Shown here: positions 26,094 through 34,487 of the stretch, piece after piece
Numbering within the stretch: position 1 is the stretch's first letter
Layout of the letters: each line of letters begins with the position of its first letter
Assembly (NCBI RefSeq): GCF_012932215.1
Contig: NZ_CP048788.1
Coordinates: forward strand, 2,170,001 to 2,234,000
Reading direction: 5' to 3'
From: Roseobacter ponti
GTDB taxonomy: Bacteria > Pseudomonadota > Alphaproteobacteria > Rhodobacterales > Rhodobacteraceae
DNA length: 64,000 nucleotides
The notes under the pieces: model-generated
Database searches by the model: none
What the model saw: the letters and a program-made list of their open reading frames with translations, nothing else
Told to the model about the DNA's origin: nothing
Position numbers and translations under genes: made by a program

Positions 26094-26385
26094 TTGCCCC
26101 GTTCACTGCAGGGCAAGGTGCAAACGTCGCATTGATGACGCATTTCCCCGGGATGATCACGGTTGTGAAGCATGCGTCGCCTGTGGTCTGACGGTTGTCG
26201 TGATTTTCTTCTGTCCCTTTTTGCGCACAAATGAACAGGTTCACCTGCACGTATCCGGTGAAGACGATCGAGACGACCGGCGTTTCCGTAAGCGGCAAAT
26301 TCAGGCTCAATGATCTGAAAAACACCACTCTGGTCAATCAGAAGTTAGCGAATTGCCCCTATCAATGCGCATCAGAGGCGGTGCG
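26094..26385. other. Intergenic stretch
   Basis: About 290 bases between the truncated cyclase gene and the GGDEF-EAL gene. No coding features were recognised. It should contain the promoter of the downstream gene, whose ATG at 26386 follows AGAGGCGG. Confidence 0.35.
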
Positions 26386-28389
26386 ATGGATCTTTTGCGC
26401 AGTGTGACGACCGATCAGTTCAGCAGAGAAGTGGACGCCAGTGTCGTTGTGACCCTGGCGAGCATTCTGGTCGTGATCTCTGCTGTAATCTGCGTAATCG
26501 ATCGCACGAATAACCGCAGAGCCGGAGAACGGAATACCTCTGATGCGCTGCTCTGGATGCACATCTGGTTTATCGTCGGCGCGGCGGGCCTGGAGCTTGG
26601 GCGACAATATCCGTTCCGGCTCAGCGCACCACTGGTGCTTACCGCGGTATGCTGGGGCCTGGTGAGCGCCTTCATTGCGATGCAAGCCGCGATGACGCGC
26701 ATGCCCGCAGGCAGGACATGGCCGGCAGTTGCCATCGCCCTCGGCGTGCTGCAAAGCGCACTTGCTGCCATATCGGACAGTGCAGGCGCGGTATTCATCT
26801 CAAGTTCGCTGATCAACGGGGGCCTTGCCGCCTGTTTTGCACTTACGCTGAACCGCGTTGCCCGGGCCCGCGCCATTGATTTCAGGATGATCATGATCGT
26901 GCCCTTCTGCGCGATTGCACTTGCCTACGGCCTGCGGCTGGTGCTGATCCTGTACGGCGTGGACAAATCGCTGATCGTTGGCTTTTCGGTTGTCATCGGG
27001 CTGCTGATTTCCGCGTCCTCGGTCTTCTGGCTCTTTTCGGCGATCTCAATTCGTGGCCAGCACCTCCTGCGACAGGTGGAACGGACATCCTCCACCGATG
27101 CCCTGACACAGCTTGGCAACCGGATGTCATTTGAGCGGTTCATGGCTGATCTCACCGGCGCCGGGCGGCGCAGCACATCACGTCAGAGCGCCTGTCTGAG
27201 CATCGACATGGACCGGTTCAAGGAGATTAACGACACATATGGTCATGAGGCCGGCGATCTTGTGCTGGTCAGCACAGCGAGGCGGCTTCAGCATTTTGGC
27301 GCCGGTTCTGAGACCCGGATATTCAGGATCGGGGGCGATGAATTCGTCCTGTGGTGCATCCCGGACGATGCGGCGCTTTTCAAAGATGAGGTGCAGGATC
27401 TGCTCGCTGAACTGGCGAAGCCCGTTGGTTTCGGCGCTGTGTCCCTGAACGTGGGCGTCAGCATCGGGGTGGAAATGAGCAGCGATGACACCGCGCCGCA
27501 TGAAATTGTCAGACGCTCGGATATCGCGCTTTATCGCTCGAAGAAAAGCGGACGCAACCGTGTTACCTTTTATTCTCACGCGCTTGGGGACACCCATTAT
27601 CAGCGATTGCGGATCCTCGAAGAATTTCGGGCCGCTCTCCGAGGTGGTGCCGTTTCCGCGTATTTCCAGCCGCAGTTTTCTCTTTCTTCCAATGCCCTGT
27701 GCGGCTGTGAGGTTCTTGCGCGCTGGCATCATCCCGAACACGGTCTTGTTTCACCAGGCGATTTCATCCCGCTCGCAAGAGAGTTGGGCCTGCTGGCGGA
27801 ACTTGACCGCTGCATCCTGGACCAGGCCCTGCAGGCACTGAACCGGTGGGATCAGTCGGGCCTTCACCTGCCGCGGATCTCTGTGAATGTGTCGATGTCC
27901 CGGTTGCGCCAGAAGGACCTGCTCGAAGAGCTTGCCAACCGCAGAGACCTGCCGCGGGGCCGGATATCTTTCGAAATGCTCGAAACGGTTTTCGCGGATG
28001 ATGATGACGCGCTGAAGTGGAATACCGACCGGCTCAAAGAGATGGGCATCGGGGTCGAGATCGACGATTTCGGCACCGGGCATGCTGCCATCAGCTCAGT
28101 GGTGTCGCTGAACCCCGACCGAATAAAAATCGACCGCTTTTTCGTACGGGGGATCGGACATTCCCAGAGCAGCCGGGACATACTGAAAGTTCTCATTGAT
28201 TTCACAAAGCTTACAGGTGCGGTCTGCCTCGTGGAGGGTGTCGAGACCATTGAGCAGCGTGACATTATCAGCACGCTTGGGGGAGATGAGATCCAGGGGT
28301 TTGTCCTCGCCCGCCCGATGCCACGAGATGAAATGCAGATGTGGCTTGAAAGGCATTACGCGGATCCGGCGAATGATCAGGCCTGCTAA
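26386..28389 (+). CDS. Membrane-bound GGDEF-EAL cyclic-di-GMP protein
   Basis: A 667-residue protein. The first ~225 residues contain about six to seven membrane helices forming an unclassified sensor. A GGDEF domain follows with an intact G-G-D-E-F at ~316-320. The position of the inhibitory I-site (R-x-x-D) holds a Thr instead of Asp, so product inhibition there is unlikely. The EAL domain has E-V-L-A-R at ~442 and D-D-F-G-T-G-H-A, so phosphodiesterase residues are largely kept. It could make or degrade c-di-GMP. ATGs at 26365 and 26386 are both possible; the latter has the better ribosome site. Confidence 0.88.
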   Translation: MDLLRSVTTDQFSREVDASVVVTLASILVVISAVICVIDRTNNRRAGERNTSDALLWMHIWFIVGAAGLELGRQYPFRLSAPLVLTAVCWGLVSAFIAMQAAMTRMPAGRTWPAVAIALGVLQSALAAISDSAGAVFISSSLINGGLAACFALTLNRVARARAIDFRMIMIVPFCAIALAYGLRLVLILYGVDKSLIVGFSVVIGLLISASSVFWLFSAISIRGQHLLRQVERTSSTDALTQLGNRMSFERFMADLTGAGRRSTSRQSACLSIDMDRFKEINDTYGHEAGDLVLVSTARRLQHFGAGSETRIFRIGGDEFVLWCIPDDAALFKDEVQDLLAELAKPVGFGAVSLNVGVSIGVEMSSDDTAPHEIVRRSDIALYRSKKSGRNRVTFYSHALGDTHYQRLRILEEFRAALRGGAVSAYFQPQFSLSSNALCGCEVLARWHHPEHGLVSPGDFIPLARELGLLAELDRCILDQALQALNRWDQSGLHLPRISVNVSMSRLRQKDLLEELANRRDLPRGRISFEMLETVFADDDDALKWNTDRLKEMGIGVEIDDFGTGHAAISSVVSLNPDRIKIDRFFVRGIGHSQSSRDILKVLIDFTKLTGAVCLVEGVETIEQRDIISTLGGDEIQGFVLARPMPRDEMQMWLERHYADPANDQAC

Positions 28390-28650: not shown

Positions 28651-29655
28651 TCATATCTGTGCGGACTGCCGGCCCGGCGCCAGACCTGCGAAAAACGTGT
28701 GCCGTTCCCGCCCGGTCCGTTTTGAATGATAGAGCGCCTCATCCGCATCTTTGAGCAGCTGATCGGCCGTTGGCCTGATGTAGTCGGTACTCTGCACAGA
28801 TCCGATGCTTGCAGAAATCCGGCAGATCGCCCCCTCAAACGGAATGGGACGTGTCATCCGGCTGATGATGCGATGCGCGATCTGTTCGATAGTGTCCCGA
28901 TCCAGGTCGCCGTCCAAAAGGACAATAAACTCATCGCCCCCCACCCGGGCCACAGTATCCGTGGAGCGGGTTTCATCGATCATGATCCGGGCCACCTCGA
29001 GCAGTACATGATCGCCTGCCGCATGCCCGAAGGTGTCATTCACTGCCTTGAAAAAATCCAGATCGATCTGCATCAGCGCAAAACTCCGGCCGGCGCTGAT
29101 GTACTGGGCCAGCACCGCATCCATCGCCCGCCGGTTATTCAGACCGGTCAGCGGGTCGGTCACGGCCTGTTCCTCTGCAGCTTCCCGCGCGGTCTGCAGA
29201 CGCCGGTTCAGCTGGTGAGAGGCCTCCATTGCGGCAGATTTCGCCTCGATCAGATAGAGCATTTCAATGGTCAGGTCGGTCGCCGCGAAGTCAGCGGCCG
29301 TAAGGTCATAATCCTGGATGGCATCGACGACGGAAATGCCGAAAGACAGGTTTACCGTCATATGCTCAGGCAATGGCCCCGCCACCGCGACCCCTTTGAG
29401 TTCCCGGTGGGGCGGCACGCGCAGCCTGATGTGCAGCTTGGCACCGGCGAGTGTCGCCAGCTCGGACCCGTCGGCGACCGGTCGCGGCCGGCGGATATCG
29501 AAAACTTCGGTAAATTCGCGGCCCCTGAGGTCACCCTCCTGCCAGAACTTCCGGGCCGTTGGTCCGGCGTGCACAATCCGCCCGTCCGGCCCCACCACCA
29601 CATGCATCGGACAGAGCACGTCCAGCATTCCGAAATATGCCTGCTGGTCACTCAT
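28651..29655 (-). CDS. H-NOX-associated diguanylate cyclase (HNOBA-GGDEF)
   Basis: A 334-residue soluble protein. Residues ~1-125 match the heme-NO-binding-associated (HNOBA) PAS-like domain, including F-G-I-S-V-V-D-A-I and the following D-L-T-A-A-D-F-A-A-T-D-L. A helical linker (~129-163, E-M-L-Y-L-I-E-A-K-S) precedes a GGDEF domain with intact G-G-D-E-F at 239-243 and an I-site R-S-T-D at 230-233. It should be an active, product-inhibited c-di-GMP synthase controlled by the H-NOX protein encoded just upstream, whose stop codon overlaps its ATG by 4 bases. Confidence 0.9.
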   Translation of the reverse strand: MSDQQAYFGMLDVLCPMHVVVGPDGRIVHAGPTARKFWQEGDLRGREFTEVFDIRRPRPVADGSELATLAGAKLHIRLRVPPHRELKGVAVAGPLPEHMTVNLSFGISVVDAIQDYDLTAADFAATDLTIEMLYLIEAKSAAMEASHQLNRRLQTAREAAEEQAVTDPLTGLNNRRAMDAVLAQYISAGRSFALMQIDLDFFKAVNDTFGHAAGDHVLLEVARIMIDETRSTDTVARVGGDEFIVLLDGDLDRDTIEQIAHRIISRMTRPIPFEGAICRISASIGSVQSTDYIRPTADQLLKDADEALYHSKRTGRERHTFFAGLAPGRQSAQI

Positions 29656-30239
29656 CCGGCACGCGCACCGAGATCAAATCCGCGTCCTTCGGCAAACTCT
29701 GTTTCGAGAAGGGTAACGGCAACAACCTCTGCGCCGTCTTCGGTGCCTTTATGTTCAAGAAATGCCAGAGCGCCGTAATCGTCGGCCATAGCGCGCAGCA
29801 CACCCATGAATAGATGACCGCATCCCGGCACCTGCCCGCGCACCAGAAGCGTATAGCTGCCCGGCGCATGTTCGCGCAGCGCGATCTCCGGCAGTTCCAG
29901 ATCCGAGACGGCAAGGCGTGCACGGTCGGGCAGATCATCCAGTGAGTGCAGGAATTCGATAAAACTTACACCACTGAACCGCAAAAGACGACGCAGCGCC
30001 TCAACACCCGGGTGCGACACAAGATAGGTACCGATATCCTCGAGAAGTTCGTCATAGCCGCGGTCGAGCACATCACAGACGGCCTCCAGCACACGCGGTG
30101 TGATCGCGTCGTCGTAAGACCACATTGCCTCAAACTCCGAGAACCCCAGGCCCGCACGGTCGGTCGCAGCCCGCCATTGCGCCGCGCCGTAACTGTCGGT
30201 GACAAATCTCTGGATAGCCCGGTTTACCAACCCGTGCAT
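29652..30239 (-). CDS. H-NOX (HNOB) domain protein lacking the canonical heme ligand
   Basis: A 195-residue H-NOX-family protein starting M-H-G-L-V-N-R-A-I-Q, with the family segment S-H-P-G-V-E-A-L-R-R-L-L-R-F at 75-88. Classical H-NOX proteins bind heme through a histidine in a L-x-x-L-H motif and hold it with Y-x-S-x-R. Here the motif reads S-L-D-D-L-P (Pro104 where His is expected), and the later segment reads L-V-R-G-Q-V-P at 132-138. Heme binding in the usual way is therefore doubtful. The gene is translationally coupled to the diguanylate cyclase gene, implying a kept partnership. Confidence 0.85.
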   Translation of the reverse strand: MHGLVNRAIQRFVTDSYGAAQWRAATDRAGLGFSEFEAMWSYDDAITPRVLEAVCDVLDRGYDELLEDIGTYLVSHPGVEALRRLLRFSGVSFIEFLHSLDDLPDRARLAVSDLELPEIALREHAPGSYTLLVRGQVPGCGHLFMGVLRAMADDYGALAFLEHKGTEDGAEVVAVTLLETEFAEGRGFDLGARAG

Positions 30240-30336
30240 GAACGCCTCATTCCCATAATCCCGCAGGCAGGATGACGCACACCGGTTAAGATTTACCCAG
30301 GAGAGATCTGGTCAGGCATTGAAATGATTACACTTT

Positions 30337-33071: not shown

Positions 33072-34487
33072 ATGACCAAAAACGTGCAGGGCAAAATCCT
33101 CATCGTTGATGCCATTTCCACAAACCGCATCGTGCTCAAGGTCAAACTGGCATCCGCGTTCTACGAAGTTGTTCAGGCCGCGACCGCTGATGAGGCCTGC
33201 GTCGCAGCTCTGCGGCATGACCCCGATCTGATCATCTCCGCGATGGCCCTGCCAGACTGCGATTCCGCAGAGCTGTGCCGCAAGCTGCAGCGCAATCCCC
33301 AGACCCGCGCGATCCCGATGATGGTCATCGGCTGCCGGCCCAATGCAGACAGCCGGCTCGAAGCGCTTGAGGCCGGCGTGCATGACGTAATGCTCAAACC
33401 CATCGATGACACGCTGCTGCTGGCGCGCGTCCGCAGCCTGATCCGGGCGCATAACACTGCGGCGGAATGGAAAATGCGCGAAGACACCTCGCGGGCGCTC
33501 GGTTTCGCCGAAGATCCCGCTGACTTCGGTCCGCCGGGACGGGTGATCATGGTCGGTGCGGACAGCGCCCGTATTCACGGCTGGATGAGCAGGCTGACGC
33601 CGGTGCTGCGCAGCGGGCTGCGCTATGCCGCGCCCGAAACGGCTCTGCGCGATCTGATGCCGGGAAAGGTGCCGGATATTTTCGTGCTTGTGCTGGAAGA
33701 CAGGGATAATCACTCCGGCGAAGTTCTGCGCCTGCTTGCCGCCATCCGGGCCACGGCGATAACGCGCCATGCCGGCATTCTCGTGCTGCAGCCCAGTCCG
33801 GATCCGGGACTTGGCGCCTATGCGCTTGATCTGGGTGCCGACGATCTGATGACTGACGGGTTCGAGGTCACTGAAATGGCCCTGCGTGTCAAAGCGATGC
33901 TGCGGCGCAAACGGCTTGCCGACCAGCTGCGCGCGACCGTACGCACCGGGCTTAAAGCCGCTGTTTCCGATCCGCTCACCGGGCTGCACAACCGGCGCTA
34001 TGCCATGCCCCATCTGGCGCGTGTGGCCGAGCATTCGGCGGCCACCGGGCGCAGCTTCGCGGTCATGGTGGCCGATCTTGACCACTTCAAGCGCATCAAT
34101 GACCTTTACGGTCATGCCTCGGGCGACGCGGTGCTGGTCGAGGCCGCACGGCGTCTGCGCGAGAATCTGCGCGGCGTTGACCTTGTCGCGCGGATCGGGG
34201 GCGAGGAGTTTCTGATCGTCATGCCGGCCACACCGCTGACCGAGGCCCGGGTCGCCGCGCGCAGGATCTGCCGGCGGATAGGCGGCATCGGATTTACGGT
34301 CCCGGGCGCGCCGGACCCGATCACAGTGACAATCTCGATCGGGGTGACCATCGGCGGGCTTCAGGGCAAAAATGCCTGCGAACGCGACCGCGATGCGAAT
34401 TTCCTTCTCGATGCGGCGGACAAGGCGCTCTACGAATCCAAAGTGCAGGGACGCAATCAGGTTACGATGAGCCGGCCCGCCGCCTGA
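33072..34487 (+). CDS. pleD: PleD-like response regulator diguanylate cyclase with altered receiver
   Basis: A 471-residue protein with the PleD layout: receiver (~1-125), second receiver-like adaptor (~155-290) and GGDEF domain (~300-471). The catalytic G-G-E-E-F is at ~376-380 and an I-site R-G-V-D lies just before it. The first receiver keeps the K-P motif (M-L-K-P-I-D) but has Ala57 where the phospho-acceptor Asp is expected (I-I-S-A-M-A-L-P), Ala14 for an acidic-pocket residue, and Gly for the switch Thr. Phosphorylation control is thus doubtful, while c-di-GMP synthesis should be intact. Confidence 0.85.
   Translation: MTKNVQGKILIVDAISTNRIVLKVKLASAFYEVVQAATADEACVAALRHDPDLIISAMALPDCDSAELCRKLQRNPQTRAIPMMVIGCRPNADSRLEALEAGVHDVMLKPIDDTLLLARVRSLIRAHNTAAEWKMREDTSRALGFAEDPADFGPPGRVIMVGADSARIHGWMSRLTPVLRSGLRYAAPETALRDLMPGKVPDIFVLVLEDRDNHSGEVLRLLAAIRATAITRHAGILVLQPSPDPGLGAYALDLGADDLMTDGFEVTEMALRVKAMLRRKRLADQLRATVRTGLKAAVSDPLTGLHNRRYAMPHLARVAEHSAATGRSFAVMVADLDHFKRINDLYGHASGDAVLVEAARRLRENLRGVDLVARIGGEEFLIVMPATPLTEARVAARRICRRIGGIGFTVPGAPDPITVTISIGVTIGGLQGKNACERDRDANFLLDAADKALYESKVQGRNQVTMSRPAA

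Follow-up and report, generated by a model that had tools for sequence, protein, structure and literature searches.

What does an H-NOX protein do when the histidine expected to hold its heme iron is gone, and its gene stays joined to that of a cyclase? This question is raised by a gene pair in the window, the 64,000-nucleotide stretch of Roseobacter ponti DNA that was analysed (contig NZ_CP048788.1, positions 2,170,001 to 2,234,000). The H-NOX is of the type that Lee-Lopez & Yukl (2022) found as a fifth, very large cluster, named "Group 5", in a similarity network built from the Paracoccus denitrificans H-NOX (PMC8738867). The two genes are:

29652 to 30239, minus strand: H-NOX (HNOB) protein, Group 5 type, 195 aa (PF07700 match, E 1.2e-22; AF2 fold).
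28651 to 29655, minus strand: diguanylate cyclase, 334 aa, with an HNOBA-like N terminus and a GGDEF domain, overlapping the H-NOX stop codon by 4 bp.
28927 to 28941, minus strand: GGDEF motif of the cyclase, residues 239-243, with the I-site RSTD (R230-D233) 5 residues upstream, read from the sequence.

An earlier, sequence-only reading of the locus had taken the 195-residue H-NOX gene to be intact, and this was confirmed: the frame opens with ATG, contains no internal stop, and its product matches PF07700 with 81 bits for a Pfam cut-off of 25.5. The AF2 model (pLDDT 87.9) has the H-NOX fold, with a TM score of 0.81 and Z of 21.5 against 2o09. The same reading had placed Pro104, in the stretch S99-L-D-D-L-P104, at the position of the proximal heme histidine, and had called for an alignment with H-NOX proteins of known structure. 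We ran it both with phmmer to solved chains and as a MAFFT multiple alignment, and Pro104 (codon CCC) fell in the same column, that of Nostoc His105. Loss of the Y-x-S-x-R clamp of the heme propionates, suspected from the stretch L-V-R-G-Q-V-P, was also borne out, as Tyr134, Ser136 and Arg138 are replaced by Val133, Gly135 and Val137, all within that stretch. The residues concerned, and those kept, are:

29928 to 29930, minus strand: codon 104 (CCC), whose proline takes the place of the proximal heme histidine in the alignment to Nostoc His105.
29829 to 29843, minus strand: residues 133-137 (V-R-G-Q-V), where the alignment places the Y-x-S-x-R clamp of the heme propionates.
30030 to 30032, minus strand: Gly70, the first of the two hinge glycines, the same in all 209 members (hinge role, PMC7108781, PMC8738867).
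29802 to 29804, minus strand: Gly146, the second of them, likewise the same in all 209 (hinge role, PMC7108781, PMC8738867).
29889 to 29891, minus strand: Pro117, proximal proline, invariant in 209 of 209 (role, PMC7108781).

In canonical H-NOX, the conserved proximal proline distorts the heme (PMC7108781). The pocket and gas-tunnel columns are still apolar in the window clade.

The cyclase is intact as well. An ATGA overlap of 4 bp joins the H-NOX stop codon to the downstream cyclase frame, as the earlier reading had it, and Pfam matches HNOBA at residues 10-58 only (E 2.8e-8) and GGDEF at residues 164-318 (E 1e-40). Active site and I-site were rightly called complete (GGDEF at 239-243, R230-x-x-D233). 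In the non-redundant clade, 207 of the 209 partner cyclases have the GGDEF motif, the other two lying at contig ends, and 205 have the I-site. The neighbours of H-NOX in the window belong to the GGDEF, GGDEF-EAL, MTTB and HAD families. Further c-di-GMP genes lie on both sides of the pair: a GGDEF-EAL protein (26353-28389, plus strand) converges on the cyclase, and 33072-34487 (plus strand) encodes a PleD-like protein with receiver and GGDEF domains. Three of the seven GGDEF matches of the window genome are thus within about 8 kb.

How common is such a protein? PF07700 was found in 181 of the 248 genomes of the same family, the Rhodobacteraceae, and the copies fall into two classes, canonical and window-like. 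In 289 sampled alphaproteobacterial genomes, the profile of the window class (A1) matched only three times outside the family. About 200 Rhodobacteraceae orthologues adjoin the same cyclase, and the pair is present in all 19 genomes of the window's genus. Residues at column 104 were counted in 209 members, the window included and identical sequences removed: P 164, H 14, S 7, A 6, R 4, Q 4, N 4, T 2, D 2, K 1 and G 1. Proline therefore makes up about 78% and histidine about 7%, the rest being spread over nine other residues. When the 80 loci picked by similarity to the window were left out, His was present in about 12 of 122 in the family sample alone. Since 164 of 209 non-redundant relatives share it, Pro104 is neither chance nor a sequencing error. 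The standard clamp residues are absent from His104 and non-His104 members alike.

A few observations were made along the way. Ligand loss is found outside Group 5 too: in one canonical-class locus (L026, 1495-2040, plus strand), Gln takes the proximal position. A second H-NOX, canonical and with His, is present in five of the 19 genomes of the genus (L256-L260), and no cyclase homologue turned up in the stretch fetched; in the genome search, the copy at L259 has one internal TGA. An assembly titled Nocardioides marinus (L128, JAHVJD010000007.1) is probably misnamed: it contains a Rhodobacteraceae operon whose H-NOX and cyclase give the same matches as those of L203 (G238), and the two contigs are equally long.

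Could another residue hold the heme? His98, which the sequence-only reading had named as an example of another histidine that an alignment might put at the heme position, did not hold up: it is present in 9 of 14 His104 members and 147 of 195 others, and as it also occurs beside His104 it is no substitute. More generally, the loss of one ligand is no proof of heme loss. Heme might still be bound, without a proximal protein ligand or through a distal residue such as the near-invariant His2 (198 of 209; Tyr in Nostoc), and NO still sensed. The apolar pocket and gas-tunnel columns fit this, as does the Dinoroseobacter shibae protein, which is listed as a heme NO sensor and lacks the standard clamp; because it is reported to carry heme despite its degenerate clamp, clamp loss alone does not exclude heme. 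A possible source of NO is at hand, since the host genome encodes the nitrite reductase NirK, and in P. denitrificans hnoX has been linked to NO consumption (PMC5588039). However, the ligand position accepts nine residues other than Pro and His, His2 is equally frequent in His104 members and so is not compensatory, and no gain of His, Cys, Tyr or Met accompanying Pro104 was seen in the clade alignment. We regard continued heme-based NO sensing as unlikely.

A second way to signal would be a zinc/cysteine redox sensor, as in the heme-free H-NOX of Vibrio cholerae or Caulobacter crescentus (PMC7108781, PMC12329717). The earlier reading had proposed a switch of this kind, and it failed: three conserved cysteines are required, whereas the window protein has just C55 and C140, neither of them conserved in the clade, which agrees with what is reported for Group 5 (PMC8738867). 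The commonest clade cysteine is at column 133 (69%), where the window has Val. A zinc/cysteine mechanism is very improbable.

With two heme-binding elements lost, the protein might be a decaying former sensor, retained only through operon structure. The record of substitutions speaks against this. Between the window and its nearest relative (L246), 39 changes are synonymous and 3 non-synonymous (dN/dS 0.021), and the clade median dN/dS is 0.068 over 101 pairs; the kept frame had already been put forward as an argument against decay, and these values strengthen it. Gene and cyclase are kept together across the genus, and an hnoX mutant of P. denitrificans has phenotypes (PMC5588039). Decay is scarcely credible.

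Did the clade lose its histidine once? We compared three trees, built from H-NOX, from H-NOX plus cyclase, and from the cyclase alone. Pure His loss without regain was far worse than a reversible model (lnL −76.3 versus −48.1, −57.8 versus −40.8 and −55.6 versus −40.7), so that the reversible model was ahead by 15 to 28 log units, values to be read with deep branches weakly supported, an outgroup that is not one clade in the first tree, and transfer between species possible. The switching between His and other residues at column 104 was apparently repeated and reversible; since the deep branching is weak, the numbers of losses and gains are not fixed. The two clearest shallow cases are both found in the combined tree: L249 (genome G547), from the window's genus, has His104 and is sister to a Pro protein, and L160, from Sulfitobacter, has His104 and is sister to an Asp protein. 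Both appear to have regained the heme ligand. His and Pro codons can be one base apart (CAC and CCC).

Three further patterns concerning His104 were set aside. Nitrite reductase was present in 7 of 13 His genomes and 15 of 41 others (Fisher p 0.34), an underpowered comparison with a non-random non-His set. Trp or His at column 135 accompanied His104 in 10 of 14 members against 13 of 195 others, which was not significant after relatedness was taken into account, there being too few independent pairs. An excess of His over Gln among the one-step neighbours of Pro gave p ~0.06 with rough origin counts. Among seven genus genomes tested for NirK, two had it, G547 (the genome of L249, with His104) and that of the window.

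If the ligand is gone, which shape does the protein take? In structure comparison, the window model matched activated human soluble guanylate cyclase (sGC) with Z scores of 22.1, 21.9 and 21.3, and the inactive form with 20.6 and 20.3; for Manduca sGC the values were 17.7 (active) and 16.7 (inactive). A canonical His protein from the same genus, used as control, gave 24.7, 24.1 and 23.6 (activated) against 24.9 and 23.9 (inactive) in human sGC, and favoured the inactive form of Manduca (17.9 versus 16.4). The window model would seem to lean towards NO-activated sGC, but the lean is small, a Z gap of 1-1.5 being near the limit of a tie with one heme-free model on each side, and it concerns the sequence of the whole clade and not a single residue. 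The Shewanella oneidensis H103G variant has reportedly been used to imitate the activated form, and 2kil is listed as its structure.

As described in the literature, NO activates canonical H-NOX by breaking the iron-histidine bond, whereupon rotation takes place about the two glycines (PMC7108781, PMC12329717). Since NO switches the output on by breaking this bond, a protein that lacks it should be in or near the activated shape by default. The window protein still has the H-NOX fold and its apolar pocket, along with the hinge glycines and proximal proline, but has lost the residues by which the iron is ligated and the propionates are clamped. With no iron-histidine bond to break, its resting shape may be at or near the "NO-activated" form, and such an activated-like H-NOX would restrain the cyclase constitutively, or until a signal other than His-ligated heme releases it. 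Building on the observed anatomy, conservation, operon, selection and family membership, we consider that the window H-NOX, a Group 5 protein, is, on balance, probably a regulatory partner and not a His-ligated heme NO sensor, holding its cyclase back by default or until some other signal arrives. That it restrains its cyclase is most likely; the functional absence of heme, the sign of the regulation in Roseobacter ponti and the default-on state are what we infer. In the literature searched, we found no biochemistry or spectroscopy of any Pro-type protein. The nesting of His members among Pro relatives (L249, L160) suggests that the pocket may still be usable, and this counts against our reading.

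That pocket might have acquired another use, with a different ligand (an apolar metabolite, another tetrapyrrole or a fatty acid) as the true signal. It is apolar and under selection, and the clade has its own invariant or nearly invariant residues, R83, R84, R87, E67-D68 and A152-D153-D154-Y155-G156, which were not seen in the canonical alignment. These belong in part to two near-invariant motifs specific to the clade, RRLLRFGG (residues 83-90) and LRAMADDYGAL (148-158), possibly a cyclase interface or a new ligand site. As the invariant residues could equally form the interface, and no candidate ligand was found, we hold a new ligand to be quite unlikely.

Upstream of the H-NOX gene is a further conserved element:

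30284 to 30300, minus strand: conserved CtrA-like promoter box CTGGGTAAATCTTAACC, family form TTGG-N7-TTAA (comparison of upstream regions).

Most relatives have the TTAA core at about −48. It was found between −70 and −38 in 182 of 207 upstream regions (mean of 18 in shuffled sequences), and is correctly placed in all 14 His members. In the window the TTAA of the box is intact, and its first half differs from the family form at one of four bases. Only 1 of 207 upstream regions has a perfect CtrA box, TTAA-N7-TTAA, the degenerate form being the conserved one. In D. shibae the CtrA site is TTAAC-N5-GTTAAC, and HNOX is among the traits under the CtrA phosphorelay (PMC7232146); the Rhodobacter capsulatus cyclase rcc02629 is reported to be CtrA-regulated (PMC9143464). 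The box resembles a CtrA site and may be bound by CtrA.

For the family as a whole, it is possible, though doubtful, that an NO sensor became a default-on cyclase inhibitor in the Rhodobacteraceae, sensing being lost and regained at one codon (CCC/CAC), so that relatives with an identical operon would differ in NO-responsive c-di-GMP. The literature carries NO control of c-di-GMP over from D. shibae to its relatives, but about nine in ten of the sampled family orthologues lack the ligand of D. shibae. The annotation "heme NO-binding" in Rhodobacteraceae usually designates a protein without the heme ligand. Natural His and Pro members of one clade make the question of the Group 5 trigger (PMC8738867) directly testable.

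Compared with known systems, the window protein resembles canonical heme H-NOX (Nostoc, S. oneidensis, sGC beta1) in fold (Z about 20-22), hinge glycines and proximal proline, but differs in having neither proximal His nor Y-x-S-x-R clamp, and Leu in place of Nostoc Trp74. With D. shibae H-NOX-Dgc1 (Dshi_2815 and its neighbour) it shares clade, operon, the TTAA promoter core and the absence of a standard clamp, whereas the D. shibae protein has the proximal His, and binding of both heme and NO is reported for it. There, H-NOX inhibits Dgc1 (PMC7232146, PMC8846402). In the literature searched, D. shibae has the only orthologue reported to sense NO, and as it belongs to the His minority, its NO data are not transferable to the window protein.

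Closer in its ligand position is HnoX-DgcA of P. denitrificans (Pden_3719/3720), with Pro at the same place, an overlapping downstream GGDEF gene and about 40% identity to the window; it is more divergent, and its cyclase has no HNOBA match. The hnoX mutant is biofilm-deficient and has no BapA, and dgcAB overproduces biofilm (PMC5588039). In 2017 the authors read this as H-NOX inhibiting DgcA. The hnoX phenotype is the best in vivo support for our reading, being consistent with cyclase inhibition. Against our reading stand the authors' view of the pathway as NO-dependent and later work that could not quantify c-di-GMP (PMC12582929). The 2017 paper (PMC5588039) also remarks on the missing proximal ligand in both Rhodobacter sphaeroides and P. 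denitrificans, and a probable R. sphaeroides genome (G051) has Pro at column 104, which fits that remark.

Finally, in Group 5 as published, fewer than 10% of members have the proximal His and most have Pro instead; no Cys is conserved, whereas the hinge glycines are (PMC8738867). The window protein has Pro104, both hinge glycines and no conserved Cys, and its clade has 164 Pro and 14 His among 209. Its neighbour families, GGDEF, EAL, MTTB and HAD, are among those named in a neighbourhood-figure legend of that paper. No feature sets the window copy apart: it is one more member of the published Group 5, to which our analysis adds the lability between His and other residues, the loss of the clamp even in His members, the promoter box and a model leaning to activated sGC.
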